Source: Betaproteobacteria bacterium
Lineage (GTDB): Bacteria > Pseudomonadota > Gammaproteobacteria > Burkholderiales > SG8-41
DNA: 36,605 nt
Direction: 5' to 3'
Assembly: GCA_900299145.1 (NCBI GenBank)
Contig: OMIN01000080.1
Span: 1 to 36,605, forward strand
Below the pieces are notes generated by a model. The model saw nothing but the letters and a program-made list of their open reading frames with translations. It was not told where the DNA came from and did not search any database. Below, piece by piece: positions 1 through 34,690 of the stretch. Made by a program: the position numbers and the translations under genes. Each line of letters begins with the position of its first letter. The first letter of the stretch is position 1.

Positions 1-13
1 AAAACAAATACTT
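1..13 (-). repeat. AT-rich dispersed repeat, copy G (cut by window edge)
   Basis: Read on the minus strand this is AAGTATTTGTTTT, identical to the left half of the AT-rich repeat seen complete at 17926-17952 and 24826-24854. The rest of the copy would lie outside the window. Confidence 0.55.
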
Positions 14-63
14 ATTATAAACAGCCCATTGATGCAGTAGCAGAAATCGTCAACATCCTGCTC

Positions 64-177
64 ACGTCATTCCGGCGAAGGCCGGAATCCAGTACGTAAA
101 CCCATGCAAAGCACCTGGATTTGGGGTCCTTCGGACCGGCGTTACGACCTTGATTCTGGCCTTCGCCAGAATGACGT
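64..177. repeat. REP/BIME- or MITE-like paired palindrome element
   Basis: Two near-identical inverted arms of about 29 nt lie at 64-92 and 149-177. The outer ends are ACGTCATTC and GAATGACGT, and each arm is itself a palindrome (CCGGCGAAGGCCGG type). The element fills the space downstream of the cytochrome c peroxidase gene. Related elements lie at 31751-31831 and 34525-34604. The rest of 1-238 shows no gene. Confidence 0.75.
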
Positions 178-238
178 GGTAGGTGGTCAGCTATTCTGTT
201 CAGCCAATCGCACGGAATGAAACGGATACGCTCTACGC

Positions 239-1507
239 CTACGGCGCGGCGTAGTTGTCCTCGACCGCCGCCTTGCCGTCCAGTGTGCACGGCGGCAGCG
301 CGTATTCCTTGCCGCGCCAGGGCGGCGCGCGATCCATGTTGAGCGACTGCAAAAACGCGACGAGGTCCGCCGATTCGCGCTGGGAGAGTTTCAGTGGCCG
401 CAAAATGCTTTCGCCATCGGCATGCAGTCGGTCGACATTCAGCTCGGAGTAATGCCGCACCACCTGATCAAGCGTGACAATTTCGCCGCTGTGCATATAC
501 GGCCCGGTGTAACCGACGTTGCGCAGCGACGGCACCTTGAATTCGCCGAAGTTACGGTGCTCTGCCTTCACGTGCGTGGTCTTGACCGCGCCCGCGCGAG
601 CAGGGTCGTCGTTGTAGGGCCCCAGCAGATTGAATTTGCTCGACAGCAGCTTTTTAATGCCCTCGAAGCGGCCGGCATCGACTTTCTTGCTGTCACCATC
701 GATGAAATGCGACACGCCGATATCATGAAATTCGCCGTTGGTAAACATCGGCCCGGTATGGCAGGTGCTGCAATTGCCCTTGCCGATGAAGATTTTCAGA
801 CCGCGCCGCGCATCACGCGGGTACAGCGAGGCCGCCGCGTGATCGCCGCGCGCCAGTGCATCGCGGAATTGGTCGAACGGCGTCACATCCGTCACCAGTG
901 TTTCCTGAAACGCGGCCATCACCTTGCCCACGCCCACCAGCACGGCTTCGTCGTCCTGCCTGGCCGGGCTGACACCAAAGGTTTTTTCATAGCGGCACGC
1001 GAGATCGGCATCTTTGCGCACATACTGCGCCACGTGCGCGGCATTGGAGGCCAGCTCGCGCGGATCCACAATCGGCCGCATACTTTGGCCCCACAGGCTA
1101 TCCGCCGCGCCGTCGAGCGCGAACCAGCGATGATGACGCATGTTCATCAGCGTAGGCGTGTTGCGATCCACCAGCGTCTGACCGCTGTTGCGCTTTACGC
1201 CATCCGTCCAGTTGTATTCGGCGATGTGGCAGGTGCCGCACGACACGTTGCCTTTCACCGACAGCTTCTCGTCGAAGAAAAGGCGCTCGCCCAGATCGGC
1301 GGCATGAGCGTTGCCGGACACCCGATTGCTTTTGTCGGGCGACCACGGCATCGGCCACGGTCCGTGACTGAGGATGCGGCTCACTTCCGTCTCGGAGAAT
1401 TCCACCACGCCCGGCTCGTCCGCCAGCGAAGCGCCCGTAAACCACGCCGCGCCGATGCTCCCTGCTGCAAGCGCGCCCGTCATGAGTAAGGATTTGATTT
1501 TTTTCAT
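239..1507 (-). CDS. Di-heme cytochrome c peroxidase (MauG/CcpA family)
   Basis: The 422-residue product has an N-terminal signal peptide (about residues 1-29, ending ASLADEP), so it should be exported. Two c-type heme motifs are visible: CGTCH at 90-94 and CSTCH at 246-250. This is the two-domain layout of bacterial di-heme peroxidases and MauG-type proteins. The stretch around residues 250-262 (TGPMFTNGEFHDIGV) is characteristic of the C-terminal heme domain. Known roles are periplasmic reduction of H2O2 or oxidative modification of a partner; which applies here is not visible. It is the last gene of a minus-strand operon. The YtkA-like gene stops 4 nt upstream and no good ribosome site precedes this ATG, so translation is probably coupled. 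Confidence 0.93.
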   Translation of the reverse strand: MKKIKSLLMTGALAAGSIGAAWFTGASLADEPGVVEFSETEVSRILSHGPWPMPWSPDKSNRVSGNAHAADLGERLFFDEKLSVKGNVSCGTCHIAEYNWTDGVKRNSGQTLVDRNTPTLMNMRHHRWFALDGAADSLWGQSMRPIVDPRELASNAAHVAQYVRKDADLACRYEKTFGVSPARQDDEAVLVGVGKVMAAFQETLVTDVTPFDQFRDALARGDHAAASLYPRDARRGLKIFIGKGNCSTCHTGPMFTNGEFHDIGVSHFIDGDSKKVDAGRFEGIKKLLSSKFNLLGPYNDDPARAGAVKTTHVKAEHRNFGEFKVPSLRNVGYTGPYMHSGEIVTLDQVVRHYSELNVDRLHADGESILRPLKLSQRESADLVAFLQSLNMDRAPPWRGKEYALPPCTLDGKAAVEDNYAAP

Positions 1508-1511
1508 TGCG

Positions 1512-1955
1512 TTATTGCAGCACCACGCTGGTTGTCATGCGCTCAACCGCGCCAGCGTCACCCTCGCCGCCTGCGCGCACTTCGAAAATATACTCCCATC
1601 GCCCCGGCATGTGAAACATCAGCCCTTCCGCGCGGTATTTACCCGCGCCAACGCCGCTGATAGTGGTTTTGTAATTCATGCCATGGCGGTGTTCGGGCAT
1701 GTGCGCATCGACGCGCACGTTGCCAGGTGCAGCCGCCCCGGCTTTCGCACACACCGCCAGCTCAACCACGAAGTGCTGACCGATGGTGATTTTTTCCGGC
1801 TGGGTGCGAAAAGCCAGTGCATAGCTTTTGGATTCGATGGTTTTTGCGGCAGCTTTCGCGCCGGCGAGATCGGGCGTGCAGGCGAAGGCAGCAGCGTGAG
1901 AACCCAACCACGCCACAGCCACCATCTTCGTGCATAACTTCATCGTGGCATTCAT
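1512..1955 (-). CDS. YtkA/FixH-like exported protein
   Basis: The 147-residue product has a short signal peptide ending about ACTPDL. A C-terminal immunoglobulin-like region contains MPEHRHGMNY and a later GRWEY motif. The HxHGM-type segment followed by Gx(Y/W) beta strands is typical of YtkA-like and FixH domains, often found near copper or heme proteins. A longer in-frame start is possible up to 2282, but that extension is arginine-rich, overlaps the amidohydrolase in another frame and looks spurious. I chose the ATG at 1955 because it overlaps the upstream gene's stop as ATGA (1952-1955), a classic coupling signature. A second ATG lies four codons in. It sits between the amidohydrolase and the di-heme peroxidase, so a periplasmic redox or metal-handling accessory role is a reasonable inference. 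Confidence 0.82.
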   Translation of the reverse strand: MNATMKLCTKMVAVAWLGSHAAAFACTPDLAGAKAAAKTIESKSYALAFRTQPEKITIGQHFVVELAVCAKAGAAAPGNVRVDAHMPEHRHGMNYKTTISGVGAGKYRAEGLMFHMPGRWEYIFEVRAGGEGDAGAVERMTTSVVLQ

Positions 1956-2885: not shown

Positions 2886-2896
2886 GAACACCAAAA

Positions 2897-3724: not shown

Positions 3725-4711
3725 TTACTCCGCCTTTATCCCTGCCGCCTTAACCACCTTGGCCCACGTCGCCAATTCCGTGCGTACCAGCGCGGCAAAC
3801 GCTTCCGGCGCGCTGGCGACGGCTTCCACGCCCTCATTGGCGAACACTTTGCGTACGTCGGGCGCCTGCAAGGCGCGCGCGACTTCCGTGTGAATTTTCG
3901 CGAGTATCGCTGGAGGCGTTTTTGCCGGTGCGAACAGGCCATTCCACGGCCCATGGTCATAGCCCGCTACGCCGGATTCGGCAAACGTCGGCACGTCGGG
4001 CGCTGCGGGTGAACGCGCGGCCGTCGTCACTGCGATTGCACGCAGCTTGCCGCTGCGCACATGCGGCAGTACACCGACCGTGGTGCCGATATTGAGCTGC
4101 ACCTGCCCTCCAATGGCAGCCGTCACTGCCGGGCCGCCCCCAGTGTACGGAATGTGCACGAGATCGATGCCGGTCATGGCTTTCAACAACTCCATCGACA
4201 TGTGCGTGCCGCTCGCCAGCCCCGCCGACGCGTAATTGATCGTGCCGGGCTTTGCCTTGGCCAGTGCCAGCAAGTCCTGCAGCGTCTTCGCGGGGAAACC
4301 CGGATGCGCCGCCAACAGATTCGAAAAACGCGTCAGCTGCGAAATCGGCGCAAGATCGCGCCCGGTGTCGTAGGGCATGCGCTTGTGCATGCTCGGATTC
4401 ACCGTAATGCCGGAGGCTACCACCAGCAGCGTATGCCCGTCGGGTGCGGCACGCGTCACCAGTTCGGTACCGATGATGGTGCCCGCGCCCGGCCGGTTAT
4501 CCACCACCACTGGCTGCTTCCACGCTTCCGACAGTGCCCGCGCAACCAGCCGTGCGGTGAGGTCCGTGGAAGCGCCAGGCGATTGCGGCACTATAATGCG
4601 CAGCGGACGCGCTGGATAACTGGCGGCTGGGGCGCCATCGCGTTGTGCAAACGCTGGCGTACTGGCGAGCACAAGCAAGCCTGAGATACTGCTCCTGCAA
4701 ATCTTCCACAT
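3725..4711 (-). CDS. Bug-family (TctC-like) tripartite tricarboxylate transporter binding protein
   Basis: The 328-residue product is a periplasmic solute-binding protein of the Bug family (PF03401), which captures carboxylates and related small organic molecules for TTT transporters. The signal peptide ends STPAFAQ. Signature segments follow in order: YPARPLRIIVPQSPGASTD, VVDNRPGAGTIIG, DGHTLL, MPYDTGRDLAPIS, HIPYTGGGPA, LRAIAVTT, DVPTFAESG, and a terminal AAGIKAE. Two ATGs (4717 and 4711) are in frame. I prefer 4711 because GAGG lies 6 nt before it, while it abuts the other. The gene stands alone between the terminator at 3641 and a 170-nt gap containing AT-rich repeat copy E. No TctA/B partner is in the window. 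Confidence 0.94.
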   Translation of the reverse strand: MWKICRSSISGLLVLASTPAFAQRDGAPAASYPARPLRIIVPQSPGASTDLTARLVARALSEAWKQPVVVDNRPGAGTIIGTELVTRAAPDGHTLLVVASGITVNPSMHKRMPYDTGRDLAPISQLTRFSNLLAAHPGFPAKTLQDLLALAKAKPGTINYASAGLASGTHMSMELLKAMTGIDLVHIPYTGGGPAVTAAIGGQVQLNIGTTVGVLPHVRSGKLRAIAVTTAARSPAAPDVPTFAESGVAGYDHGPWNGLFAPAKTPPAILAKIHTEVARALQAPDVRKVFANEGVEAVASAPEAFAALVRTELATWAKVVKAAGIKAE

Positions 4712-4742
4712 GTTCATCCTCGTAACTTTCTTGTTCCATCTT

Positions 4743-4770
4743 AACTATTTGTTTTTATTCATTTTTTTAT
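4743..4770 (+). repeat. AT-rich dispersed repeat, copy E
   Basis: Contains AACTATTTGTTTTTATTCA, one base off the family core. It lies just upstream of the Bug gene at 3725-4711, in its probable leader. The remainder of the gap 4771-4882 shows no gene. Confidence 0.75.
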
Positions 4771-4882: not shown

Positions 4883-5848
4883 CTACTCCGCGACTATTTT
4901 TGCCGCGCGGATCACGGTGGCGTACATTACCGTCTCCTTGCGCACATGATCTGCCAGCGCTTCCGGCGTGCTGGGCGTGGCTTCCGCCCCCTGTTGAGCG
5001 AAGCGCTCTTTGACATCCGTGCGCGCGAGCACCTTGCCAAAATCGGCATTGAGTTTGGCGATGACATCACGCGGTGTCGCGGCGGGCGCGAACATCCCGC
5101 TCCACGTCGGAATGTCGAAACCTCTGAAAGTCTCGGCCACTGCGGGCACCTCGGGTAACAGCGGCGAACGCGAAGCCGACGACACCGCCACCGCTCGCAC
5201 ACGGCCCGTGCGCAGATGGGGCATGGTGCCGACGATATTCGCAAACATCAAATCCACCTGCCCCGAAATCAGATCAACGAATGCGGGCGCTGCGCCTTTG
5301 TACGGCACATGGTTCATGGTAACGCCCGCCTGAAGACGCAGCAGCTCCATGCCCAGGTGCTGCAAGTTGCCGACACCCGACGAAGCATAATTCAACTGCC
5401 CCGGACGAGTGCGCGCCAGTGCCATCAATTCCTTCACGCTTCTCGCTGGCAATGACGGATGCACCGACAACACCATGCGCCCGGCGTTGACCATGGTAAT
5501 GGCGGCAAGATCACGCTGCGGATCGTACGGCAGTTTTTTGAACAAGGTCGGGTTCACTGTGATCGGCCCCGCATTACCGATCAGCAACGTGTAACCGTCG
5601 CCTGCCGCCTTGGCAACCACTTCCGCGCCAATGTTGCCGCCCGCGCCGCCACGGTTTTCCACCACGACAGCCTGCCCCCAGATTTCGGTAAGGCGCTGAC
5701 CGAGCACGCGCACGATTTCATCGTACGGGCCGCCTGCGGCGTAGGGGACGACTACGCGGACGGGTTTGATGGGGAAGGTTTGCGCATGGGTATACACGGC
5801 TACGCCAGCCATTCCAAAAGCCACACACCACGCCTTGATCAGATACAT
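4883..5848 (-). CDS. Bug-family solute-binding protein
   Basis: The 321-residue product has a signal peptide ending VYTHAQ. Bug signature segments are FPIKPVRVVVPYAAGGPYDE, VVENRGGAGGNIG, DGYTLLIG, LPYDPQRDLAAI, YASSGVGNLQHLG, NHVPYKGAAPA, VPAVAETFRGFD and a terminal AAKIVAE. The NLQHLG loop is shared with the Bug protein at 24912-25886, so these two may be closer paralogues. The ATG at 5848 has a GGGG-rich ribosome site a few bases upstream; the alternative start at 5914 would add 22 residues ahead of the signal peptide and is unlikely. It lies downstream of the cyclase-family gene with a gap of about 100 nt, so co-transcription is plausible. Confidence 0.93.
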   Translation of the reverse strand: MYLIKAWCVAFGMAGVAVYTHAQTFPIKPVRVVVPYAAGGPYDEIVRVLGQRLTEIWGQAVVVENRGGAGGNIGAEVVAKAAGDGYTLLIGNAGPITVNPTLFKKLPYDPQRDLAAITMVNAGRMVLSVHPSLPARSVKELMALARTRPGQLNYASSGVGNLQHLGMELLRLQAGVTMNHVPYKGAAPAFVDLISGQVDLMFANIVGTMPHLRTGRVRAVAVSSASRSPLLPEVPAVAETFRGFDIPTWSGMFAPAATPRDVIAKLNADFGKVLARTDVKERFAQQGAEATPSTPEALADHVRKETVMYATVIRAAKIVAE

Positions 5849-9271: not shown

Positions 9272-9369
9272 GATTTGGGCGGTGGCGCCGGGAACGCCTT
9301 TCGCCAGCAGCACCCATAACCATAATTACTACAAGTACCTGTTTTATAAGACATTTTCAGGAGGATGTC

Positions 9370-13128: not shown

Positions 13129-13152
13129 ACCGCTCTCCCCGTTTATACAATT

Positions 13153-13174
13153 ATTGTTTTAAAACAGATACTTA
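13153..13174 (-). repeat. AT-rich dispersed repeat, copy H (degenerate)
   Basis: On the minus strand it reads AAGTATCTGTTTT followed by AAAACAAT. The left half matches the family and the right half has diverged. It lies between the acyl-CoA ligase and amidohydrolase genes. Confidence 0.5.
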
Positions 13175-15649: not shown

Positions 15650-16651
15650 TTACTCTGCCTTGATGTTGGCCGCGCGGACGATTTTTCCGAAAACGGCGAT
15701 TTCTTCGGCGACGATCCTGTCGAAGCCCGCCGGCGTCGTGGGCTGGGGCGTAAGCCCTATCGGCAACCAGCGCTGCTTCACATCGGATTCCAGGAGCACA
15801 CGGCGGATTTCACCGTTCAGCTTACTGACGATGATTTTGGGAACCTGCGATGAAGTCAGGATGCCAAACCACAAATCGGCGGCAAAACCCGGCAAACCGG
15901 CCTCGGATAATGTGGGCATGTCAGGCAGCAGCGCGTCGCGTTGCAGCGAAGACACGCCCAGCCCCACCACGCGCCCTTCTTTCACCATATTCAGCGCATT
16001 GGCGATCGGTGACATAAAAAGTTGCACACGGCCACTGATGGTTTCGGTCAACGCTTCTGGTATTCCCTTATAGGGCACGTGCACGATATTGATCCCCGCA
16101 GCAGCCTTGAACTGTTCGGCAGCGAAGTGCGTACCGCTGCCCACGCCCGCCGAGGAGAAATTCAACTGGCCGGGCCTGGCCTTCGCCATCGCCAGAAGAT
16201 CCTTGAGCGTTCTTGCACCGAGCGCGGGCGCCGCCACCAGCACGTACTTCGACACGGCCGTTTGCGTGATGCCTGACAGGTCCTTCATGGTGTCGTACGG
16301 CAGCTTGGCATAAATCACCGCCGCCACCGCATGCGCCGATGACACCGACAATAGCGTGTAACCATCCGGGTTGGCGTTCGCCACCAAATTGGCGCCAACC
16401 GTGCCACCCGCGCCGGGGCGATTGTCCACAATCACCTGCTGCTTCCACGCCTCCGTGAGCTTCTGCGCCAGATAACGCGCGGTGATGTCCGGCCCGCCGC
16501 CGGGCGTAAAGCCGACGACGATGCGGATGGGCTTCACCGGGTAATCCGCTTCGGCGGATTGCGCGGCCATTCCCGGCTTGACCATCGCAACCATGCTCGC
16601 GAAAGCAAGCATCACCGCGCCCGCAAGAACTCTGAGGTAGTTTCGCCGCAT
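15650..16651 (-). CDS. Bug-family solute-binding protein
   Basis: The 333-residue product has a long leader ending KPGMAAQ. Bug segments are YPVKPIRIVVGFTPGGGPDI, IVDNRPGAGGTVG, DGYTLLSVSS, LPYDTMKDLSGI, FSSAGVGSGTHF, VHVPYKGIPEAL, MPTLSEAGLPGF and a terminal AANIKAE. The ATG at 16651 follows a GGAG at good spacing; a GTG at 16693 would add 14 residues and has no ribosome site. It is the promoter-proximal gene of the operon with pirin and acyl-CoA ligase. A GATAAT hexamer at 16683-16688 on the minus strand is a plausible -10. Confidence 0.94.
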   Translation of the reverse strand: MRRNYLRVLAGAVMLAFASMVAMVKPGMAAQSAEADYPVKPIRIVVGFTPGGGPDITARYLAQKLTEAWKQQVIVDNRPGAGGTVGANLVANANPDGYTLLSVSSAHAVAAVIYAKLPYDTMKDLSGITQTAVSKYVLVAAPALGARTLKDLLAMAKARPGQLNFSSAGVGSGTHFAAEQFKAAAGINIVHVPYKGIPEALTETISGRVQLFMSPIANALNMVKEGRVVGLGVSSLQRDALLPDMPTLSEAGLPGFAADLWFGILTSSQVPKIIVSKLNGEIRRVLLESDVKQRWLPIGLTPQPTTPAGFDRIVAEEIAVFGKIVRAANIKAE

Positions 16652-16760: not shown

Positions 16761-17927
16761 ATGCCCGCCTCGATTGCACTCCTGTTAACCCTTTCCACCG
16801 CACTGTTCGTCGCCTCCAAGGGTAACCGCGTATTGGTCACGCTGACCGCCGTGGATGCCGGCGCAAGCCCGCTGCAACTCGGCATCCTGTTCGCGCTGCA
16901 CGGGCTGTTTCCGTTTCTGCTGGCGATCTACGCGGGCCGCCTGGCCGACCGCATCGACAACCAGCGGCTGATCTACAGCGGCATTGCCGTATATGCCTTC
17001 AGTCTCGCAATGCCTTATGTGTGGCCCGGTTTGAGCACCTTGTATGTCTCGGCAGCCGTGGGCGGCCTGGGCAACATGCTGTTCGTACTGGCGTTGCAGA
17101 ACCTCATCGGCGTGTTGTCCACCAACGCTACCCGGCGGCGCAATTACAGCTGGTATGCGCTGGGCGAATCCGCCGGGCACGGGCTGGGGCCGATCGCCAT
17201 GGGCCTGTGCATCGATCACTTCAACACCACGACAGCGTTTCTGATCGCGGCCCTCTTCAGCGCGATATGGCTGCCGGTGGCATTGGGCTTCCGGCGGCAT
17301 TTTCCTGCAACCCAACCCGCGGATCACAAGCCCGCCAACGCCGCGCACGGCAGCCGCGACTTGCTGAAGCTGCCCGCAATGCGGCTGGCCCTCATCACCA
17401 ACGGCGTGTTCATGATCGGCTTTGATTTGTTCAATTTGTATATCCCGGTATATGGGCGCGGACTGGGCCTCACCGCCACCGCCATCGGGCTGGTCGTTGG
17501 CGCATACGCTCTCGCGGCTGTGATCACGCGCGGGTTGCTGCCACTTGCCAGTGCACGCTGGGGCGTGCGGCGCATCCTCACGCTGGCCCTCGCCGGGCCT
17601 GCCTGCGCGTTTGCCTTGATTCCGTTTACCGGCAGCGTGTGGCTGCTGGCGCCGCTGGCGTTCGTCATCGGTCTGGGCGTCGGTTGCGGCATGCCACTGT
17701 CGATGGAACTTGCGTTCAACGCGGCGCCGCAAGGCCGCACCGCGGAAGGCGTCGCCATGCGGCTCACCGTCAGCTTCGGTGCGCATGTGTTCATCCCGCC
17801 ACTATTCGGCGCATTGGGCGCCGTGATGGGATTAGCGCCGGTGTTCTGGGTGTGTGCGTTGGCGTTGAGCGGTGGCGCGGCGATGCATGCGCGGCATCAA
17901 GCGGCCCACGCCACTGATAAAACGTAA
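16761..17927 (+). CDS. MFS transporter
   Basis: The 388-residue integral membrane protein has about 12 hydrophobic segments. The loop AGRLADRIDNQRL (about residues 66-78) is the major facilitator motif A between TM2 and TM3. The C-terminal half repeats the six-helix layout. The ligand is unknown; the compact size fits the drug/sugar-type exporters of MFS_1 (PF07690). The start at 16761 begins the first hydrophobic helix, and no ribosome site is seen. The stop codon TAA (17925-17927) lies at the left edge of AT-rich repeat copy A. It is a single gene divergent from the Bug operon and convergent with 17949-18881. Confidence 0.9.
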   Translation: MPASIALLLTLSTALFVASKGNRVLVTLTAVDAGASPLQLGILFALHGLFPFLLAIYAGRLADRIDNQRLIYSGIAVYAFSLAMPYVWPGLSTLYVSAAVGGLGNMLFVLALQNLIGVLSTNATRRRNYSWYALGESAGHGLGPIAMGLCIDHFNTTTAFLIAALFSAIWLPVALGFRRHFPATQPADHKPANAAHGSRDLLKLPAMRLALITNGVFMIGFDLFNLYIPVYGRGLGLTATAIGLVVGAYALAAVITRGLLPLASARWGVRRILTLALAGPACAFALIPFTGSVWLLAPLAFVIGLGVGCGMPLSMELAFNAAPQGRTAEGVAMRLTVSFGAHVFIPPLFGALGAVMGLAPVFWVCALALSGGAAMHARHQAAHATDKT

Positions 17928-17952
17928 GTATTTGTTTTTATTGAATTTTTAA
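17926..17952 (+). repeat. AT-rich dispersed repeat, copy A (reference copy)
   Basis: A full copy with core TATTTGTTTTTATTGA followed by ATTTTTAAG. It occupies the whole gap between two convergent genes. The MFS stop TAA (17925-17927) overlaps its left end and the minus-strand stop of the next gene (17949-17951) lies within its right end. Confidence 0.8.
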
Positions 17953-18881
17953 GAAACCAACTCCAGCGCGCGCAGCATCTTGGCGCTGAATGCGCGCTCG
18001 CGGTCGAGGAAGTCTTTTAACGCATCGCCAGTAATGAACTCCGGCGACCAGCAATTTGCCGCAAGTTCTTCCTGCCATTCCGGGTGTTGTAGCGCCTCAC
18101 CCAACACGCCAATCCAGTACGCCACGTGTTCAACACCGATGTCCGGCGCCCCCACCAGACCACGCCACTGACCGAGCACGCACGGCACATTCAGCTCGCG
18201 CCACGTAGGTGCACCGGCAAACACACCGCCAAGCCGCTCCATGGACGACACCGCGAGCACGCGCACCGTGCCAGCTTCGAGCGCCTTGCGCGCACTGACG
18301 GACGAAATCACCCCCAGCTGCGCGTTACCCGCCACCACGTCATCCACCGCATAAAGCGCGGAATCAAACACCCGTAGATCGAGCTTGCGCGGATCAGCCC
18401 CGCCATGCATCAACAACTGCCCGAGCGCCACGTGATTAGTTGTGCCGATGGCCGTGGCAATCGCCACTTTCATCCCGGCCGGATTAGTGGCCAGCGTAGC
18501 CAGCATCGACTTCGCATCACGCAAAGGCGAAGCCGCCGGCACAATAAACGCCAGATATTCCGTGTAAAGATTCGCCACGGGCGTCAGCGCCTCGTGATCG
18601 TAGTCACTCACGCCCTGAATGCGGTTACTCAGAAGCGGCATCGCACTGATCGACAACACATGCGGATCGCCCGCCCGCACCCGCAACGCATCCCAAGCCT
18701 TGCCGCCGCCCTTGCCTGTGATGTTGGTGATTTTCATCGGCGCGTCCACAAGGCTCGCGCTTTGCATGATGCGCATCAGCGTCCGGGCCGGGCGGTCCTG
18801 GCCGCCGCCGGGTGGGGTGCCTACGATGAATTCAACTTCTCGCGAAGGAAGCCATACGCCCGCGGAGTGTGTACCAGCCAT
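17949..18881 (-). CDS. TctC-like Bug protein without a signal peptide
   Basis: The 310-residue product is homologous to Bug solute-binding proteins: EVEFIVGTPPGGGQDRPAR near the N-terminus, then a QWRGLVGAPD segment and the ITGDALKDFLDRE C-terminal region. These last two resemble the TctC-like protein at 27653-28624 (NWRGVIGA, MTGPKLREFLDAE). It starts MAGTHSAGVWLPSREVEF with no hydrophobic leader. Extending the frame to 18935 adds MGWFGAEGFRRQW and still no signal. It is therefore predicted cytoplasmic, which is odd for this family. GAGGAAA supports the ATG at 18881. The PanE-like gene ends 11 nt upstream, so the two are probably co-translated from one mRNA. The stop codon lies in AT-rich repeat copy A. 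Confidence 0.85.
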   Translation of the reverse strand: MAGTHSAGVWLPSREVEFIVGTPPGGGQDRPARTLMRIMQSASLVDAPMKITNITGKGGGKAWDALRVRAGDPHVLSISAMPLLSNRIQGVSDYDHEALTPVANLYTEYLAFIVPAASPLRDAKSMLATLATNPAGMKVAIATAIGTTNHVALGQLLMHGGADPRKLDLRVFDSALYAVDDVVAGNAQLGVISSVSARKALEAGTVRVLAVSSMERLGGVFAGAPTWRELNVPCVLGQWRGLVGAPDIGVEHVAYWIGVLGEALQHPEWQEELAANCWSPEFITGDALKDFLDRERAFSAKMLRALELVS

Positions 18882-18892
18882 GATTTCCTCAG

Positions 18893-19828
18893 TTATCCAT
18901 TGCCGCCTGAAGCCCTCAGCGCCAAACCATCCCAAACCGCCCGATTACAAGGCGTAGCCACTCCCACTTTCTGCCCCAGCCGCACCACACCGCCAGCGAG
19001 CCATTCGACTTCCAGGCGGTTGCCATTCTTCAAGTCGTGGTGCAGCGACGAATCCATGGTCGCCGGCACACCATCGGCGAATTTCAGTCGATCATCGGCG
19101 TAGTCTTCCGGCAGCGCCACGCCCAACGCACGGCCCACGGCCACGGCCTCTTTCATCAGATCATGCAGGAAGGCGCGGGTTTGGGGGTTTTCGCGGATGG
19201 GACCTATGGGGGAGCGCATGTTGGCGGTTGCGCCGGAGAGGCCGACGAGGAAGGTGTATTTCTCCCACAGCGTGCGGCGGATGTCGTCGGAGAGTTCGGC
19301 TTGTATTCCGGCTTTTAGCAATGCGGCGAGGAGTTTTTCTGACCGTTCGGATTTTTTGCCGCCCGCGTAACCATATTCGCCAAATACCAGCCGCTGTAAC
19401 GTGCCGACCTGATTGATCACGCCGGGCCGGGATATATGTGTGCCCACGTATGCCACGCCGCCCATCAGCGCTTGTTGGCCGAAGATGCCGCCGAGGATGT
19501 CATCTTTTACCACGCCGTTTTGCAGTGATAGCACCGCCGTGTGCGGCCCCGCGATGGGCATTAACTGTTTCGCCACGGCTTCGGTATCCCACAGCTTTAC
19601 AGCGAACAGAATGAGATCAGGCGTGCCGGTTGATGCCGGGTCGTCAGTAACTTTGACAGGTTTCACCAGCGTATTGCCGAGCGTGGCGTTTTCGATCAGC
19701 AGGCCCTGTTCGCGCATGGCTGCCAGATGCGCACCACGTGCAACGAAGGTGACGTCGCAACCGGCACTTGCCAGGCGCCCGCCGTAGAGGCCGCCGACGC
19801 CGCCGGAGCCCATGACGAGTATTTTCAT
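18893..19828 (-). CDS. Ketopantoate reductase family protein (PanE-like)
   Basis: The 311-residue product has the N-terminal Rossmann motif GSGGVGGLYGGRLA (residues 7-20) for NADPH. Other family segments are LFAVKLWDTE, SLQNGV and the WEKYTFLVGLSGATA region carrying the catalytic Lys of ApbA/PanE enzymes, followed by the helical C-terminal domain. The reaction of the founder is NADPH-dependent reduction of 2-dehydropantoate to pantoate. In a catabolic setting like this, a paralogue acting on another 2-oxo acid is equally likely. AT-rich repeat copy I lies immediately upstream and the leader offers only TGGAAAA as a ribosome site. Confidence 0.9.
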   Translation of the reverse strand: MKILVMGSGGVGGLYGGRLASAGCDVTFVARGAHLAAMREQGLLIENATLGNTLVKPVKVTDDPASTGTPDLILFAVKLWDTEAVAKQLMPIAGPHTAVLSLQNGVVKDDILGGIFGQQALMGGVAYVGTHISRPGVINQVGTLQRLVFGEYGYAGGKKSERSEKLLAALLKAGIQAELSDDIRRTLWEKYTFLVGLSGATANMRSPIGPIRENPQTRAFLHDLMKEAVAVGRALGVALPEDYADDRLKFADGVPATMDSSLHHDLKNGNRLEVEWLAGGVVRLGQKVGVATPCNRAVWDGLALRASGGNG

Positions 19829-19833
19829 TTTTC

Positions 19834-19853
19834 CATTTAAAACAGATAGTTAC
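19834..19853 (-). repeat. AT-rich dispersed repeat, copy I (degenerate)
   Basis: On the minus strand AACTATCTGTTTTAAATGG lies just before the PanE-like start codon. The left half matches the family; the right half has diverged or been lost. Confidence 0.5.
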
Positions 19854-21576: not shown

Positions 21577-22335
21577 TCAACCGCTCGAATTGTCCACTGG
21601 CTGGCCGGCAGCTCCCGCCAGCACTTCTGCCACATGCAACACAGCGGTTTTCATGTCACCGCGGCGCCGCAAGCGGCCTTCGATATTGAGCATGCAGCCC
21701 AAATCGCCCAGCACCACCGCATCTGCGCCACTGTCCTTGATGTTCTCGCATTTGCGATCAGCGATGTGGGTGGAAATCTCGCCATACTTCACCGCGAAAG
21801 TGCCGCCAAAGCCGCAGCAGGCTTCGCATTCGTTCATTTCAGTGAGCGTAATACCTTCCGCTTTTGCCAGCAGCGCACGCGGCTGCGCCTTCACGCCCAG
21901 CTCGCGCATCCCTGAGCAGGAATCATGATAAGTTATTGTTTTTATTGAATTATTTTTAGGGCACACCACACCCTCGAACTTCACCACATTCACCAGAAAA
22001 TCCGTCAGCTCATACGTGCGCGCGCACAGTGCCGCCGCGCGTGTTTCTTCCGGCTGGCCCTTGAACAGATCACGATAGTGCGTGCGGATCATGCCCGCGC
22101 AAGACCCTGACGGCGCCACCACGTAATCCACGCCGTCGAATTCTTGCAACACCTTGCGCGCCAACGCCAGCGCTGATGCGCGGTCGCCGCTGTTATAGCC
22201 GGGCTGGCCACAGCAGGTTTGCGTGGCGGGTACCACAACCTCGCATCCCGCCTGCTCGAGTAACTTCAATGCTGCAAAACCGATGCTCGGGCGCATCAGA
22301 TCGACGAGGCAGGTGACGAAGAGGCCGACTCTCAT
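21577..22335 (-). CDS. LutA/YkgE-like (Fe-S)-binding protein with CCG domains
   Basis: The 252-residue product has two cysteine-rich CCG modules: TCCGQPGYNSG (Cys41-Cys42) and CEACCGFGG (Cys170, Cys173-174), with HDSCSG between them. This matches LutA/YkgE/GlcF-type subunits that bind an iron-sulfur cluster in L-lactate or glycolate oxidation complexes. LutB and LutC partners are not adjacent. Residues about 126-135 (PKNNSIKTIT) are encoded by AT-rich repeat copy D, in frame. The product is about a dozen residues longer than I recall for YkgE/LutA. The ATG at 22335 is preferred to GTG 22359 because it begins the conserved MRVGLFVTC; no ribosome site is clear for either. Confidence 0.92.
   Translation of the reverse strand: MRVGLFVTCLVDLMRPSIGFAALKLLEQAGCEVVVPATQTCCGQPGYNSGDRASALALARKVLQEFDGVDYVVAPSGSCAGMIRTHYRDLFKGQPEETRAAALCARTYELTDFLVNVVKFEGVVCPKNNSIKTITYHDSCSGMRELGVKAQPRALLAKAEGITLTEMNECEACCGFGGTFAVKYGEISTHIADRKCENIKDSGADAVVLGDLGCMLNIEGRLRRRGDMKTAVLHVAEVLAGAAGQPVDNSSG
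21930..21960 (+). repeat. AT-rich dispersed repeat, copy D (inside a coding sequence)
   Basis: Contains TTATTGTTTTTATTGAATTA followed by TTTTTAGG, nearly identical to copies A and C. It lies antisense inside the LutA-like gene and preserves the reading frame. Confidence 0.8.
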
Positions 22336-23891: not shown

Positions 23892-24863
23892 CTACTCCAC
23901 CTTCGCGCCCGAATCCTTAACCACCTTGCCCCACTTTACCATTTCGCGCTTGATGTGTTCGGCGTATTGTTCCGGCGTGCTACCCACCGGTTCGATGCCA
24001 TCGCGCAGCAGACGATCACGGATGTCCGGCACTTTCAGCACGCGGGCAACTTCGTTGTAGACGCGGTCGATAATGGGTTTAGGGGTGCCGCCGGGCGCGC
24101 AAATGCCGGCCCATGATATCGCTTCAAAGCCGGGCAAGCCCTGCTCGGCAATGGTGGGAATGTCCTTCATGGTGGAAAACCGCTGGCCACTGCTGATGCC
24201 AAGCACCCGCAGCTTGCCCGCCTGCACGTGCGGCATTGAAGACACCGGCTGATCGAAAATCATCACCACCTGGCCGGCGAGCAGGTCACTCATGGCGTTG
24301 CCCGTGCCCTTGTACGGCACATGCACCATGTTCAGCCCCGCCGCCGATGCGAACAGCGCCGCCGAAAGATGCGAAGCCGTGCCCACGCCCGACGAGGCAT
24401 AGTTGATCTGGTTGGGCCGCGCCTTGACGAAATTAATGAAATCGCGCGTGCCCTTCACCGGCAACGACGGATGCACCACGATGATGTAGGGCAGTGTGCC
24501 GGTTTGTGTCACCGGTGCAATGCCTTTCTCCGGATCGTACGGCAGCTTGCTGTAAAGAAACGGCTGTATCGCAAACACGCCGGTGGTGCAGGCGTGCAGG
24601 GTATAGCCGTCGGGCGGCGCTTTCGACACCAGCTCCGCCGCAATATTGCCACCCGCGCCGGGACGATTGTCGACCACAACCTGCTGACCGACGTTTTTCG
24701 TCATCTCCTGCGCGATCAGGCGCGCAACAATATCGGTGGAGCCGCCGGGCGCGAAACCGACAAGGATGCGAACCGTTTTGTTCGGATAGTTCTGCGCAAC
24801 CGCCGGAACCACTCCGCCCAATCCAAATAAAAAACTCAATAAAAACAAATACTTAATATTCAT
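23892..24863 (-). CDS. Bug-family solute-binding protein with repeat-encoded signal peptide
   Basis: The 323-residue product shows YPNKTVRILVGFAPGGSTDI, VVDNRPGAGGNIA, DGYTLHACTTG, LPYDPEKGIAPV, YASSGVGTASHL, VHVPYKGTGNAM, LRVLGISSGQR and IPTIAEQGLPGFE. It ends with DSGAKVE. The leader MNIKYLFLLSFLF is unusual: codons 4-13 are AT-rich repeat copy B read in sense. Cleavage is probably after PAVA. The gene is second in a tandem Bug pair (the preceding one ends 48 nt upstream) and is followed 9 nt later by the small membrane-protein gene. Confidence 0.94.
   Translation of the reverse strand: MNIKYLFLLSFLFGLGGVVPAVAQNYPNKTVRILVGFAPGGSTDIVARLIAQEMTKNVGQQVVVDNRPGAGGNIAAELVSKAPPDGYTLHACTTGVFAIQPFLYSKLPYDPEKGIAPVTQTGTLPYIIVVHPSLPVKGTRDFINFVKARPNQINYASSGVGTASHLSAALFASAAGLNMVHVPYKGTGNAMSDLLAGQVVMIFDQPVSSMPHVQAGKLRVLGISSGQRFSTMKDIPTIAEQGLPGFEAISWAGICAPGGTPKPIIDRVYNEVARVLKVPDIRDRLLRDGIEPVGSTPEQYAEHIKREMVKWGKVVKDSGAKVE
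24826..24854 (-). repeat. AT-rich dispersed repeat, copy B (encodes signal peptide)
   Basis: On the minus strand it reads AAGTATTTGTTTTTATTGAG then TTTTTTA, a full family copy. It spans codons 4 to about 13 of the Bug gene at 23892-24863. Confidence 0.8.
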
Positions 24864-24911: not shown

Positions 24912-25886
24912 TCATTGTGGCGTAATGCCGGCCGCCTTCACGATTCTTGCATACTTTTCGAGATCTTCACGCAAAAACTTCGAGAATTCCGCGGGCGTGC
25001 TTCCACGGCTTTCAATATTGATTTCGGCGTAGGTCTTGCGGGTATCGGGATGTTGCATCACGGCTCGCGTGGCTTCATACAACCGGTTGGTAATCGCTGC
25101 CGGCAACCCCGGTGGCCCATAAATGCCATACCAGCCGGAGACTTCATAACCTTTCAATCCCGACTCGTCGAGCGTCGGCACCTCGGGAATCTGATCGCTG
25201 CGCTTTAAGCCCGTGAACGCGAGGCCGCGCAAACGATCGGTCTTGACGAACGGCACTGCAGCGGGGCTCGACGCAAAATTCATCGCGATTTGATTGGCCA
25301 GCACATCGTTGATTGCCGGGCCGCCACCCTTGTACGGCACATGGGTGATTTTCGCGCCCGCCATCAGACAAAACATTTCACCCGCGAGGTGCTGCAAATT
25401 GCCCACGCCCGCCGAAGCGTAGGAAAATTTGCCGGGCGCGGCACGCGCGGCATCCACCAACTGCTGCACCGTACGATGCGCGAACGTCGGATGCACCACC
25501 AGCACCAATCCGCTCGATTTCACGATTTCGCTGATCGGCGTGAAATCACGCAAGCTATCGTACGGCAGCTTGCGATACACATGCGGATTAATGGTGTGCG
25601 AACCGGAGGTGATCAGAATCGTGTGCCCGTCGGGCGCGGCACGCGCCACCATCTCGGTGCCGATAATGCTGTTTGCCCCCGCGCGGTTGTCCACTACGAC
25701 CTGCTGCCCCAGCACCGTACTCAGCCGATGCGCGTAGATGCGCGCGATCACGTCCGGCCCGCTGCCCGCCGATGACGGCACGATCAGGCGCACGGGGCGG
25801 TCGGGATAGGCTGCCATCGCTGACGCGCTGCACAGCAAGACGGCAGCGCCCGAACTTACCGCCAACCACGCATTCAATCTGTACAT
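24912..25886 (-). CDS. Bug-family solute-binding protein
   Basis: The 324-residue product has a signal peptide ending SASAMAA. Segments are YPDRPVRLIVPSSAGSGPDV, VVDNRAGANSIIG, DGHTILITSG, LPYDSLRDFTPI, YASAGVGNLQHLAGE, THVPYKGGGPA, VPTLDESGLKGYE and a terminal AAGITPQ. The loop after the first strand (SSAGSGPD) differs from the common PPGG form. The ATG at 25886 has AGAGG upstream. It follows the sulfatase gene by 47 nt on the same strand, suggesting a sulfatase-Bug-Bug transcript. Confidence 0.94.
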   Translation of the reverse strand: MYRLNAWLAVSSGAAVLLCSASAMAAYPDRPVRLIVPSSAGSGPDVIARIYAHRLSTVLGQQVVVDNRAGANSIIGTEMVARAAPDGHTILITSGSHTINPHVYRKLPYDSLRDFTPISEIVKSSGLVLVVHPTFAHRTVQQLVDAARAAPGKFSYASAGVGNLQHLAGEMFCLMAGAKITHVPYKGGGPAINDVLANQIAMNFASSPAAVPFVKTDRLRGLAFTGLKRSDQIPEVPTLDESGLKGYEVSGWYGIYGPPGLPAAITNRLYEATRAVMQHPDTRKTYAEINIESRGSTPAEFSKFLREDLEKYARIVKAAGITPQ

Positions 25887-27486: not shown

Positions 27487-27512
27487 GTTTCCTGAAAATT
27501 CAATAACCTGAT
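27487..27512 (-). repeat. Possible right-half remnant of the AT-rich repeat in the sulfatase leader
   Basis: On the minus strand the leader reads TTATTGAATTTTCAGGAAAC. It matches the right end of the repeat family and also supplies the AGGAAA ribosome site of the sulfatase. Only half the repeat is recognisable. Confidence 0.35.
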
Positions 27513-29150: not shown

Positions 29151-30497
29151 ATGAGTTCCCTTACAAAACCCAACATCGTACTGATCCTCGCCGACAATCT
29201 CGGCTGGGGTGAACTCGGTTGCTACGGCGGCGGCGTGCTACGCGGCGCACCCACGCCACGCATCGACGCGCTTGCAGCGCAGGGCTTGCGCCTGACCAAC
29301 TTCAACGTCGAATCCGATTGCGTGCCCACGCGCACGGCACTGATGACGGGCCGCCACCCGATACGCACCGGCGCGCTGCAATCGGTACCCGCCGGGCTTC
29401 CGCAGGGGCTGATCCCGTGGGAGATCACGTTGGGCCAACTGCTGTCGACGCAGGGCTACGCCACGGCGATTTTCGGCAAGTGGCATCTGGGCGACCGGCC
29501 GGGGCGTTTTCCGCACGAGCGCGGCTTTGACGAGTGGTACGGCATTCCGCGCACCACCAATGAGAGCATGTTCACCAGCACACCGGGCTACGACGCCAGC
29601 GTGGTGCCGCTGCCGTATGTGATGGAAGGCAAACGCGGCGAGCCAGCGCGTGACGTCGCTATTTATGATCTCGAAATGCGCCGCAAGATCGACTCTCAAC
29701 TGACTGAGCGCAGCATCGATTTCATGCAGCGGCAAGTCCAGGCAGGCAAGCCGTTTTTTACCTACGTGCCACTGACCCAACTGCACTACCCGACGTTGCC
29801 GCATCACGATTTCGCCGGCAAAACCGGCGCGGGCGATTTTGCGGATTCGCTGGTAGAGATGGATGCGCGCACAGGGCAAGTAATTGATTTTATTGATAAA
29901 TCCGGATTGACTGAGAACACCGTGTTTATTTTTGCCAGCGACAACGGTCCGGAGTTTCGCCGGCCATGGCGCGGCACGGCCGGGCCGTGGACAGGCACTT
30001 ATCACACCGCAATGGAAGGCGCGCTGCGCGTGCCATTTATGGTGCGTTGGCCGGGGCACGTGCCTGCTGGTGGCGTGTCCAACGAGATCGTGCACGTCAC
30101 CGACATCTACACCACGCTCGCCCACATTGCAGGTGCTGCGCTGCCCTCTGACCGGCCCATCGACGGTGTCGATCAACGCGATTTCTTTTTCGGCAAAGCC
30201 GAAAAATCCGCGCGTGAAGGTTTTGTCTACTTCATCAAGGACGAATTGCGCGCGGCGAAATGGCGCGACTGGAAAATGCACATGGTGTGGGAGACCGAAC
30301 CCAATGCCGGCCCCATTCATCTGGAAACGCCCTGGGTGTTCAACCTCAAGCAGGACCCCAAGGAAGAAACGGACGTCGGTACACAATACAACTGGGCGCG
30401 CCGCCCGCTGCGTGTGCTGATACAGGATTTTCAGCAAAGTCTGAAACAGCACCCGCCCATACCGCCGGGCGCGCCTGACGATTACCAGCCCAAATAG
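29151..30497 (+). CDS. Sulfatase family hydrolase (arylsulfatase-like), cytoplasmic
   Basis: The 448-residue sulfatase (PF00884) begins NIVLILADNLGWGELGCYGGG with the first metal Asp. The formylglycine motif is CVPTRTALMTGR with Cys57 (CxPxR). GKWHLG and ASDNGPE provide further active-site residues. These spellings are those of the arylsulfatase A-like branch, unlike the sulfatase at 25934-27481. No signal peptide precedes residue 8, which is unusual for this branch. The C-terminal VFNLKQDPKEETDV is a typical sulfatase tail. It lies 23 nt upstream of the enolase-superfamily gene, so the two are likely one transcript. Confidence 0.93.
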   Translation: MSSLTKPNIVLILADNLGWGELGCYGGGVLRGAPTPRIDALAAQGLRLTNFNVESDCVPTRTALMTGRHPIRTGALQSVPAGLPQGLIPWEITLGQLLSTQGYATAIFGKWHLGDRPGRFPHERGFDEWYGIPRTTNESMFTSTPGYDASVVPLPYVMEGKRGEPARDVAIYDLEMRRKIDSQLTERSIDFMQRQVQAGKPFFTYVPLTQLHYPTLPHHDFAGKTGAGDFADSLVEMDARTGQVIDFIDKSGLTENTVFIFASDNGPEFRRPWRGTAGPWTGTYHTAMEGALRVPFMVRWPGHVPAGGVSNEIVHVTDIYTTLAHIAGAALPSDRPIDGVDQRDFFFGKAEKSAREGFVYFIKDELRAAKWRDWKMHMVWETEPNAGPIHLETPWVFNLKQDPKEETDVGTQYNWARRPLRVLIQDFQQSLKQHPPIPPGAPDDYQPK

Positions 30498-31693: not shown

Positions 31694-31750
31694 GGGTTGG
31701 GAGGGATTCAAACAGATTTTTCAGGTGTCGGTCAGGCCAACACCCCAACC

Positions 31751-31831
31751 CGTCGTTCCCGCGTAGGCGGGAACCCATAACACAGTGCCATATGGCACCC
31801 CGCATGGATTCCCGCCTTCGCGGGAATGACG
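31751..31831. repeat. REP/BIME-like paired palindrome element
   Basis: Inverted arms CGTCGTTCCCGCGTAGGCGG and the complementary ATTCCCGCCTTCGCGGGAAT...GACG flank a short centre. It shares the internal AACCCATAACACAG with the element at 34525-34604. It lies downstream of the enolase-superfamily gene. Confidence 0.8.
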
Positions 31832-31902
31832 AGGAAAGAATTGCAGTTCATGCGAATTGCACGGGACGCACATCGACGCCAATAAAACGCCTCCAACCAA
31901 TA

Positions 31903-31962: not shown

Positions 31963-32241
31963 TTACTTCTTGGCCTTCTCGTCTTTCTTGTCATCCTTCT
32001 TCGCCGACTTGGATTCAATCTCCGTCGCCGTCATGCGGTACTGAATCGTCACGCGGTCGCCCTTTTTGATGTTCTTGTCGCCCTTGGTGTCCTTGTCGCG
32101 GGCGATTTCCCATTTTTCCTTGTCCTTCTCCACCACGATTTTGGTGTCGGTTACTTCCAGCACCGGGCCGGTGACCTGATACGCAAAAGCCGACGTGCCC
32201 ACCAGCATGCTTGCCGCAAAAACCGCTATCGAACGTTTCAT
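31963..32241 (-). CDS. Small exported lysine-rich protein, unknown function
   Basis: The 92-residue product has a clear signal peptide (MKRSIAVFAASMLVGTSAFA-Y). A short mature domain follows, rich in beta strands (VTGPVLEVTDTKIVVEK and RVTIQYRMTATEIESK, OB-like in appearance). It ends in a charged tail KKDDKKDEKAKK. The ATG at 32241 has GAGGAG at ideal spacing; the extension to 32307 has no support. The function is not recognised. The charged tail could bind an anionic polymer or metal, but that is conjecture. It is a single-gene unit with its own strong terminator. Confidence 0.85.
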   Translation of the reverse strand: MKRSIAVFAASMLVGTSAFAYQVTGPVLEVTDTKIVVEKDKEKWEIARDKDTKGDKNIKKGDRVTIQYRMTATEIESKSAKKDDKKDEKAKK

Positions 32242-32340
32242 GATTTCACTCCTCATGGGTTGGTTTTGAAACGGTGCAACACTAAAGCTTCGTAACGCTC
32301 TTCGCAATCGCGCGATGACGCACCGAAAGCGCCCATCCGC

Positions 32341-32371
32341 AACTATTTGTTTTTATTGAGTAATTTTAGGA
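32341..32371 (+). repeat. AT-rich dispersed repeat, copy C
   Basis: AACTATTTGTTTTTATTGAG followed by TAATTTTAGG is a full copy. It ends exactly at the stop codon of the downstream minus-strand dehydrogenase gene (stop at 32372-32374). Confidence 0.8.
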
Positions 32372-33433: not shown

Positions 33434-33462
33434 TCTCCCGCTTCGGTCGAACATTCCGCGCG

Positions 33463-33470
33463 AGTATACT
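33463..33470. promoter_or_regulatory. Palindromic -10 shared by divergent genes
   Basis: AGTATACT is its own reverse complement, so a TATACT -10 hexamer is present on both strands. It lies 26 nt before the Bug ATG (33496) and 30 nt before the dehydrogenase ATG (33433). -35 elements are not clear. Confidence 0.5.
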
Positions 33471-33495
33471 GGCTCGCCCACAACGGAGGAAACCT

Positions 33496-34464
33496 ATGCC
33501 CGCGCTCTTTCGCACCCCGCTTTGCATCGCACTGCTGCTCACGGCCCACGGAGCCTGCGCACAGGCGTACCCCACCAAACCCGTGCGCCTGATCGTCCCC
33601 TTCCCGCCCGGCGGCGGCGTTGATTTTGTCGGCCGCGTGGTTGGTCAGAAACTCACCGAGCGCCTCGGCCAGCAATTTGCCATCGACAACCGCGCCGGCG
33701 CCAACGGCATCGTCGGCCTGCAGGCGCTGATGGCTTCGCCGCCGGACGGCTACACAATCGCCGCAGTTTCCGCCGGGCCGCTGGCATGCAACCCGCACCT
33801 GTATTCCAAATTGCCGTACGACACGCTGCGCGATTTCACACCGATTGCCAACATGATCAACTTCCCGCTGATGCTGGTGGCGCACCCCTCGCTGCCGGTG
33901 AAAAACGTGAAGGAACTGATTGATCTCGCGAAAGCCAAGCCCGGTGAAATCACCTATTCGCATCCCGGCGTGGGCAACACCGGCCACATCGCTGGCGAGT
34001 TACTCAATGCAGTGGGCAAAGTCAAAACCACCGGCATTCCCTATAAAGGCACGGCGCCGTCGGTGATCGCCGTGCTGTCCGGTGAAGCGCAACTCACCTA
34101 TAGCAGCATCCCCACCGCGCTGCCTTACATCCGAGCCGGGCGGCTACGCGCGCTGGGTGTCGGCAACGCCAAGCGCATGCCCTCGCTGCCGGAGTTCCCC
34201 ACCGTCGCTGAAGCCGGCCTGCCAGGCTACGAAGCGTATGCGTGGGGCGGCATGCTGGGCCCGGCCAAAATGCCGGTGGACATCGTCAACCGCCTGTCGC
34301 GCGAAATTGTGGCCAGCATCAACAGCAAAGATGTCACAGACCGCATGCTCAACGAAGGCACCGTGCCTACGCCGTCGTCGCCCGAGGAATTCGCCGCGTA
34401 CATCAAATCGGAAATCCAGAAATGGGGCGTGGTGATTCGTGGGGCGAATATACGGGTGGAGTGA
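33496..34464 (+). CDS. Bug-family solute-binding protein
   Basis: The 322-residue product has a signal peptide ending HGACAQA. Bug segments are YPTKPVRLIVPFPPGGGVDF, AIDNRAGANGIVG, DGYTIAAVSAG, LPYDTLRDFTPI, YSHPGVGNTGHI, TGIPYKGTAPS (Ile where neighbours have Val or His-Val), LRALGVGNAKR and FPTVAEAGLPGYE. It ends with GANIRVE. The ribosome site GGAGG at 33485-33489 lies 6 nt before the ATG. It diverges from the isocitrate/isopropylmalate dehydrogenase-family gene, with which it probably shares a regulatory region. Co-regulated uptake and oxidation of a hydroxy-acid is a reasonable inference. Confidence 0.95.
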   Translation: MPALFRTPLCIALLLTAHGACAQAYPTKPVRLIVPFPPGGGVDFVGRVVGQKLTERLGQQFAIDNRAGANGIVGLQALMASPPDGYTIAAVSAGPLACNPHLYSKLPYDTLRDFTPIANMINFPLMLVAHPSLPVKNVKELIDLAKAKPGEITYSHPGVGNTGHIAGELLNAVGKVKTTGIPYKGTAPSVIAVLSGEAQLTYSSIPTALPYIRAGRLRALGVGNAKRMPSLPEFPTVAEAGLPGYEAYAWGGMLGPAKMPVDIVNRLSREIVASINSKDVTDRMLNEGTVPTPSSPEEFAAYIKSEIQKWGVVIRGANIRVE

Positions 34465-34524
34465 CGAGTAGCTTTGTCTGCAATGTCTATCTCGCAACTC
34501 TCGCAAAATCGATACATCAACCCT

Positions 34525-34604
34525 GTCGTTCCCGCGAAGGCGGGAACCCATAACACAGGTTGTATCGCAATCGCCCTATGGATTCCCGCCTTCGCGGGAA
34601 TGAC
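34525..34604. repeat. REP/BIME-like paired palindrome element
   Basis: Arms GTCGTTCCCGCGAAGGCGGG and its inverted partner GATTCCCGCCTTCGCGGGAA...TGAC flank AACCCATAACACAG, which is shared with 31751-31831. It lies in the gene-free stretch 34465-34820, which otherwise holds repeat copy K and an inverted repeat at 34703-34762. Confidence 0.82.
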
Positions 34605-34662
34605 GGGGGTTAGATTGTCAGCAAACGGACATTGATCAAGTAAGGCCGAGAAACAATTCGTT

Positions 34663-34690
34663 GAAAATATAAATTAAATCAAATAGTTAA
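34663..34690 (-). repeat. AT-rich dispersed repeat, copy K (degenerate)
   Basis: On the minus strand it begins AACTATTTGATTTAATTTAT, matching the family's left half and AT-rich character. The right half has diverged. Confidence 0.45.

Follow-up and report, generated by a model that had tools for sequence, protein, structure and literature searches.

What purpose an AT-rich word of some 40 nucleotides (nt) may serve when it recurs hundreds of times, in both orientations, across the genome of a GC-rich host is the question raised by the 36,605-nt stretch analysed here (the window), which is contig 80 of the betaproteobacterial genome G000 (5,508,723 bases in 158 contigs). A preliminary description had offered three options for this repeat, namely a short mobile repeat, an uptake or recognition tag and a protein-binding tag. 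The uptake or recognition tag is the best supported of the three, and we put at roughly 0.7 the probability that the repeats are self-DNA tags forming a third, sequence-unrelated lineage of the kind represented by the uptake signal sequences (USS) of the Pasteurellaceae. With the same confidence it is proposed that they work as USS do, without claiming membership in the class that USS form with the DNA uptake sequences (DUS) of the Neisseriaceae.

The pooled copies indicate that the best-conserved part of the repeat starts to the left of the core originally named and reads TAASTATYTGWTTT, so that the fixed unit of about 27 nt proposed at the outset has to be corrected to a 14-nt core with AT-rich arms, about 40 nt in total and non-palindromic. 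In an alignment of 195 exact cores from a 1.216-Mb sample the consensus is approximately GnnGAWWWWYR TAASTATYTGWTTT WATTGAATWTTTTWA; the core letters cannot vary there because only exact cores were aligned, the arms could vary and are informative, and information reaches background past about -10 and +31. This sample (1,215,794 bases in 18 contig stretches, chosen for long contigs with listed matches) has a two-peaked mismatch spectrum, with 196 perfect, 100 one-mismatch and 61 two-mismatch copies before background is reached. Flanks are unrelated from copy to copy, and six folds of three copies gave no hairpin in the motif unit (z-scores -1.0 to 1.2).

The claim that such a family is not due to chance at this GC content is borne out in the window, where TATTTGTTTTTATTGA at up to three mismatches has 8 matches (100 dinucleotide shuffles: mean 0.07, maximum 1) and the core at up to two mismatches has 13 (shuffles: mean 0.36, maximum 2). 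The preliminary description had named fewer than a handful of further copies genome-wide as a sign against the family; in the 5.5-Mb genome G000 a 16-mer pattern at up to one mismatch occurs at 447 places and the exact core 885 times (435 forward, 450 reverse), against 0 for the pattern read backwards as a control. Genome counts rest on fixed IUPAC cores with this backwards control, an iterative 60-column weight matrix (436 kb) having drifted to general AT-rich sequence and been dropped. The six full copies first described lie where they were placed; among the partial ones, 1-13, 13153-13174, 19834-19853 and 34663-34690 are perfect cores, all on the minus strand, and 27487-27512 fits neither TATTTGTTTTTATTGA (up to three mismatches) nor TAASTATYTGWTTT (up to two). 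The copies of the window are as follows.

1..14, minus strand: copy with perfect core, its arm cut by the contig end.
2857..2883, plus strand: copy with one core mismatch, between an Amidohydro_2 gene and a NIPSNAP gene.
4742..4768, plus strand: copy with perfect core, upstream of a minus-strand TctC gene.
13148..13174, minus strand: copy with perfect core, flanked by an Amidohydro_2 and an AMP-binding gene, both on the minus strand.
17925..17951, plus strand: copy with perfect core, occupying all the space that separates an MFS gene from a convergent TctC-like gene; the MFS gene stops at the TAA of the copy, whose right end contains the stop of the opposite gene.
19826..19852, minus strand: copy with perfect core, at and upstream of the ApbA gene start.
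21929..21955, plus strand: copy with two core mismatches, inside the CCG-domain (LutA-like) gene, where the minus strand encodes PKNNSIKTITYHDSC in frame.
24829..24855, minus strand: copy with perfect core, inside the N-terminus (NIKYLFLLSFLF) of a gene that has DNA repeats in common with the TctC genes of the window.
32340..32366, plus strand: copy with one core mismatch, just past the stop of the Iso_dh gene.
34663..34689, minus strand: copy with perfect core (W = A), intergenic.
1487..1500, plus strand: doubtful copy with one mismatch, where a minus-strand gene starts.
29877..29903 (core 29877-29890), plus strand: doubtful copy, probably chance, with two mismatches inside a long reading frame.
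9332-9345: core match, probably chance.

Exact core counts in 74 genomes of the family, which fall into nine genera (g1-g9), place the motif in four of these (g1, g6, g7 and g8), where 38 of 39 genomes carry it in graded numbers from 7 to 885 copies. Within g1 the window genome has 885 and the 13 others 79-550, except G009 with a single copy; the one genome of g6 has 241, the 21 of g7 have 8-190 and the three of g8 have 7-23, and the 35 genomes of g2, g3, g4, g5 and g9 have 0-6. A survey of the order (399 genomes, 386 of them outside the family) yielded 0-5 exact cores per outside genome except for 51 in G445, which belongs to family f25. A relaxed right-hand pattern occurs 253 times in G445 (124/129 by orientation, control 0) and 0-8 times in the other 385 genomes, the other 11 sampled members of f25 having 0-3 matches. 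The copies of G445 are closer to TAASTAYTTGATTATATTGAATATTTT (360-kb sample, GC 53%), and this version is called a dialect of the word. The relatives are metagenome assemblies labelled Betaproteobacteria or Burkholderiales, some of them from groundwater and, as we assume from the style of the isolate names, many from lakes. Eight of 80 relatives (L081, L086, L087, L089, L090, L091, L095 and L118) are titled Bordetella parapertussis; these are metagenome assemblies of 58-64% GC, most of them near this genus, and they look mislabelled.

The arrangement of copies within G000 was followed in the 1.216-Mb sample. A simple gene caller, which picks the longest reading frame, called 81% of this sample coding, yet among 296 copies at up to one mismatch 145 are intergenic, 99 lie across a gene edge and 52 are inside genes, in agreement with the leaders, gene ends and gene interiors first reported; some of the inside copies near starts may in fact be upstream, because the caller takes the longest frame. 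Many of the 24 same-strand intragenic copies encode K/N-Y-L-F-L-L near the gene start, which may be read as resembling signal peptides. About 244 copies lie in or at 927 gene gaps, and the occurrence of both orientations noted from the beginning holds in every gap type, with 62 in the same and 85 in the opposite orientation in tandem gaps (p 0.07), 25/29 in convergent and 18/20 in divergent gaps. In 70 of the 296 a gene on the opposite strand reaches its end within or next to the copy, in 11 the TAA of the copy is the stop of a same-strand gene, and two copies fall in both classes (79 in total). There is no strand polarity, since neighbours agree in orientation in 146 of 278 cases, contig polarity gives a chi-square of 15.8 with 18 degrees of freedom, and 135 of 296 copies are oriented in line with the local GC skew.

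Spacing was analysed in G000 only, for 278 spacings against three placement controls of 300 draws each. The mean spacing is 3,971 bp and the coefficient of variation (CV) 0.624, so that the copies are over-dispersed, the lowest control CV being 0.855 for uniform placement, 0.968 for non-coding sequence only and 0.750 for one copy per gene gap. Spacings below 1,000 bp number 11, against control means of 61.9, 94.6 and 30.3 and minima of 45, 71 and 17 (same order), and those below 500 bp number 3, against means of 32.8, 71.8 and 4.0; the excess regularity therefore lies in the CV and below 1,000 bp, because the gene-gap control does not explain the 11. Pair counts relative to uniform expectation are 0.09, 0.26, 0.53, 0.91 and 0.56 in the first five 500-bp bins and about 1 thereafter, with no longer period beyond this short-range exclusion. 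The sample has four gaps of more than 11 kb without the motif, and two of them look acquired to judge from their contents, the one in C98 having two serine-recombinase-like frames and the one in C124 a GC content of 54% and cytochrome-like genes (labels from translated starts).

How copies come and go is seen most clearly in the LutA-like gene, for which 81 rows were compiled: the window, three of 13 congener loci, and 77 rows from 76 of 80 named loci, the other four lacking the anchor peptide. Relative to the 27-nt motif, 28 rows have at most 7 mismatches (26 distinct ones, as two pairs are identical), 3 have 8-11 and 50 have at least 13. The distance from a TDFL-like anchor to YHDSC is 22 residues in each of the 53 rows that lack a good match and in 22 of the 28 motif rows (L072 and L086 among them); six motif rows are longer by 3 to 5 residues, with 25 in the window and L082, 26 in L087, L088 and L129, and 27 in L085 (those of L072, L086 and L087 were taken by reading the peptides). 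None of the 28 is longer by the span of a copy, which would be at least 9 residues. In motif rows the VPGxFxGTVTYHDSC type of segment changes to, for example, SKTSIKTITYHDSC. A tree built without the motif residues (79 different rows) unites the motif rows in one clade (97/98) that also includes three motif-free rows, namely G009, on a long branch, L119 and L121. The latter two are 20.7-kb loci without any exact core and are possible further losses of the motif. L111, L122 and L113 (8-11 mismatches) were considered as intermediates and not counted, as they fall outside the motif clade and adjoin a motif-free row. In L100, two LutA-like genes of one locus both carry the motif at the same internal place, with 1 and 2 mismatches in 27.

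Congener loci cover four of the window's copies. Where both anchors were present (17 comparisons), the congener copies had 2 to 11 mismatches in 27, and the span differed from that of the window by -28 to +157 nt, in six cases by no more than 3 nt; two further loci are rearranged. At 13148-13174 the congener copies have 2-11 mismatches, L057, L058 and L059 having 10-11 and a span 18-24 nt shorter than that of the window, and at 19826-19852 four congener loci have copies with 6-9 mismatches and spans differing by 0 to 3 nt. No clean pair of a filled and an empty site was seen at these places. These comparisons support the gain and loss of copies through point changes at orthologous positions, most clearly in LutA and less clearly at the spacer sites.

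With regard to the genetic capability for DNA uptake, G000 encodes ComEC, ComEA and minor pilins, and ComEC was found in 68 of the 74 family genomes, the misses being G009, G046, G067, G075, G082 and G083. G009, the sole congener without the word, has no ComEC match, the other 13 of 13 g1 genomes having one, and it is also without a GspH match and without a widespread stand-alone pilin; GspH matches are missing in 8 of 74 genomes (G008, G009, G011, G061, G078, G080, G084 and G089). ComEA does not separate G009. As a candidate receptor, G000 encodes a PF16732 (ComP_DUS) pilin in a minor-pilin operon, and 43 of 46 genomes, some of them motif-free, gave a match to this pilin, the exceptions being G008, G011 and G041. 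On its 46-row tree, in which the neighbour of G445 is a motif-free genome of the same family and one very long branch, G021a, represents a misassigned reading frame, the motif label changes 8 times, at least 5 of them forced, against a shuffled mean of about 15.5, so that the label is clustered there as relatedness would make it; the candidate was rejected because it is present in motif-free genomes and does not track the motif. The stand-alone pilin (L366:904-1707, minus strand), possibly with a competence function, was found across two families, with 73 of 79 genomes positive and six, G009 included, negative; it was matched in G445 and not in G009, but was likewise rejected as receptor since the genomes carrying it include those of motif-free genera. 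As a separate observation, G007 has two types of minor-pilin operon (L300, L338), one resembling that of the window genome and one that of other congeners, an indication that pilin operons have been exchanged.

The DUS of the Neisseriaceae are 10-12 nt long and unrelated in sequence to this word, and repetitive extragenic palindromes (REP), bacterial interspersed mosaic elements (BIME) and other dispersed repeats occur in hundreds of mostly intergenic copies, as here. Unlike REP and BIME, the present repeat has no palindrome, changes in place and also lies inside coding sequence. The Pasteurellaceae USS, such as Hin-USS with its core AAGTGCGGT and AT-rich segments, resembles it in joining a core to AT-rich tracts and in its high copy number; the present core TAASTATYTGWTTT, on the other hand, is unrelated to that of USS and itself AT-rich, stands in a GC-rich host at about 1 per 4 kb rather than about 1 per kb, and is known from sequence alone. 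Further likenesses are evolution by point mutation, dialects and a noted even spacing, as described for USS in three papers (PMC7811141, PMC1939737, PMC3630211), and dialects within a family, as described for DUS (PMC3630211). In the same papers, AT-rich segments are said to contribute to USS, which evolve by point mutation and have an average spacing of about 1,000 bp (PMC7811141), and the even spacing of uptake sequences is cited with the remark, in the discussion, that it is less even than a compaction signal would need (PMC1939737). Strong uptake preferences are attributed there to two families, Pasteurellaceae and Neisseriaceae, apparently by convergence (PMC3630211, PMC7811141), and Neisseria and the Pasteurellaceae are called unique in requiring uptake sequences (PMC3630211). 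The PF16732 pilin recalls the ComP of the Neisseriaceae; here it belongs to a minor-pilin operon, and its distribution does not follow that of the motif. A partly narrow literature search, with few subscription papers and no bioRxiv preprints, found no report of such a word in Burkholderiales in the text it covered, and the only match for the motif words was an unrelated Brucella promoter paper.

Most of the hallmarks of USS and DUS that are visible in sequence are present, including copy number, both orientations, even spacing, change in place, dialects and uptake genes. If the repeats are uptake tags, a surface DNA receptor (of the type IV pilus or the outer membrane) would bind the word in either orientation and uptake would start; recombination of the fragments taken up would favour alleles with the word, and copies would accumulate by molecular drive where harm is small, as at gene ends, in spacers, in signal peptides and in loose protein linkers. 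Copies less than about 1 kb apart would gain nothing if one copy per fragment suffices, which their rarity fits, and lineages losing transformation would lose the word. The broader proposal, that this is a third independent DNA-uptake-tag system common to several genera, a dialect of which also occurs in a member of a distant family within the order, is more tentative and falls somewhat short of an even chance. Were uptake to follow the word, its carriers would constitute a guild exchanging DNA, the sequence itself marking the limits of gene flow in a way that metagenomes make readable, and the word would provide a DNA-only marker of transformation for bacteria known mainly from them. A third lineage, its 38 genomes holding 7 to 885 copies each alongside a one-copy congener and a dialect in another family, would also allow comparative tests of why uptake sequences exist, how they spread and whether they keep gene pools apart.

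Several observations weigh against such a role. The link to competence is one genome, G009, and hence one evolutionary case at most; this genome sits on a long branch, has a GC content of 48% in the one 4.6-kb locus measured, and keeps ComEA, pilins and a divergent ComP_DUS pilin, and the approximately unbiased test does not reject placing G009 outside the motif clade in the LutA tree (p-AU 0.145). GspH matches are also missing in the motif-bearing G008, G011 and G061, the ComEC search of the motif-bearing G046 gave no match, and 31 of the 35 genomes in motif-free genera have ComEC, as is to be expected should their uptake need no tag. Neither of the pilins tested (PF16732, stand-alone) tracks the word, so that the receptor was not found among them. 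The density of about 1 per 4 kb, far lower still in g7 and g8, compares with about 1 per kb in Haemophilus influenzae, the scarcity of spacings below 500 bp is no greater than placement of one copy per gene gap yields, the differences in span weaken the argument from equal length at the spacer sites, and the other two of the four long motif-free gaps look ordinary. The points on spacings below 500 bp and on span leave the evidence from LutA, the CV and the distribution intact, and the odds as they were.

Among the alternatives, the intracellular DNA-binding protein implied by the protein-binding tag of the preliminary description stays the main rival, behind the uptake tag. It would take the form of binding sites for a chromosome-organising protein (a nucleoid or loop anchor), structurally spaced and placed clear of genes, and is considered unlikely, though its layout fits equally well: a non-palindromic, AT-rich and over-dispersed site in both orientations, changing in place and concentrated at gene edges. 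What in our judgement fits poorly is the copy range, more than 10-fold among congeners (79-885, with 1 in G009) and hard to conceive for an architectural site, together with the lack of a longer period and the patchiness in f25, where one distant genome is positive among otherwise nearly empty relatives. Each of the other rivals fails at least one test. A transcription-related element, be it a terminator, a 3'-end or messenger RNA stability signal, a promoter or an upstream promoter (UP) element, would account for the T-rich right end, the many copies at gene ends (79 of 296 with a gene end in or beside them) and the slight excess of opposite orientations in tandem gaps; the two orientations in tandem, convergent and divergent gaps alike, the 52 copies inside genes, the lack of a hairpin and the occupation of 927 gaps by only about 244 copies make it very improbable, and the data on orientation, structure and position agree with the first impression that the repeats do not look like a REP, terminator or, on indirect grounds, promoter set.

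Even less credible is a short mobile repeat, resembling a miniature inverted-repeat transposable element or the remnant of an insertion-sequence end. Hundreds of dispersed copies varying in number between species would suit it, as would the possible length change at 13148-13174; it is largely contradicted by the unrelated flanks, the over-dispersed spacing, the replacement without a copy-length gain inside LutA, the near-equal spans at 19826-19852 around copies with 6-9 mismatches, and the fact that identical letters (S, Y, W) are degenerate across all copies and genera. As remote as the latter is a replication, repair or segregation signal of the Chi, KOPS (FtsK-orienting polar sequence) or matS kind, which would likewise be genome-wide, frequent and non-palindromic; the neighbour, contig and GC-skew statistics contain none of the polarity expected of it. 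The uptake tag accordingly remains the reading we prefer.

Some minor observations concern other sequences. The exact 22-mer TAASTATYTGWTTTWATTGAAT was found in 12 stretches among 2.9 million viral contigs, one copy each, and several of these stretches are very AT-rich; the find is counted in favour of the uptake tag. The spacers of the window harbour a second, unrelated repeat family of GC-rich inverted repeats of the TTCCCGCGAAGGCGGGAA type (63-178, 31749-31834 and 34521-34608), which we take to resemble REP-like hairpins. The window also contains several genes for TctC (Bug) binding proteins, two of them confirmed by Pfam (3725-4717 and 17949-18935) and further ones suggested by common DNA repeats at 5582-5675, 16349-16442, 24594-24687 and 25614-25707.

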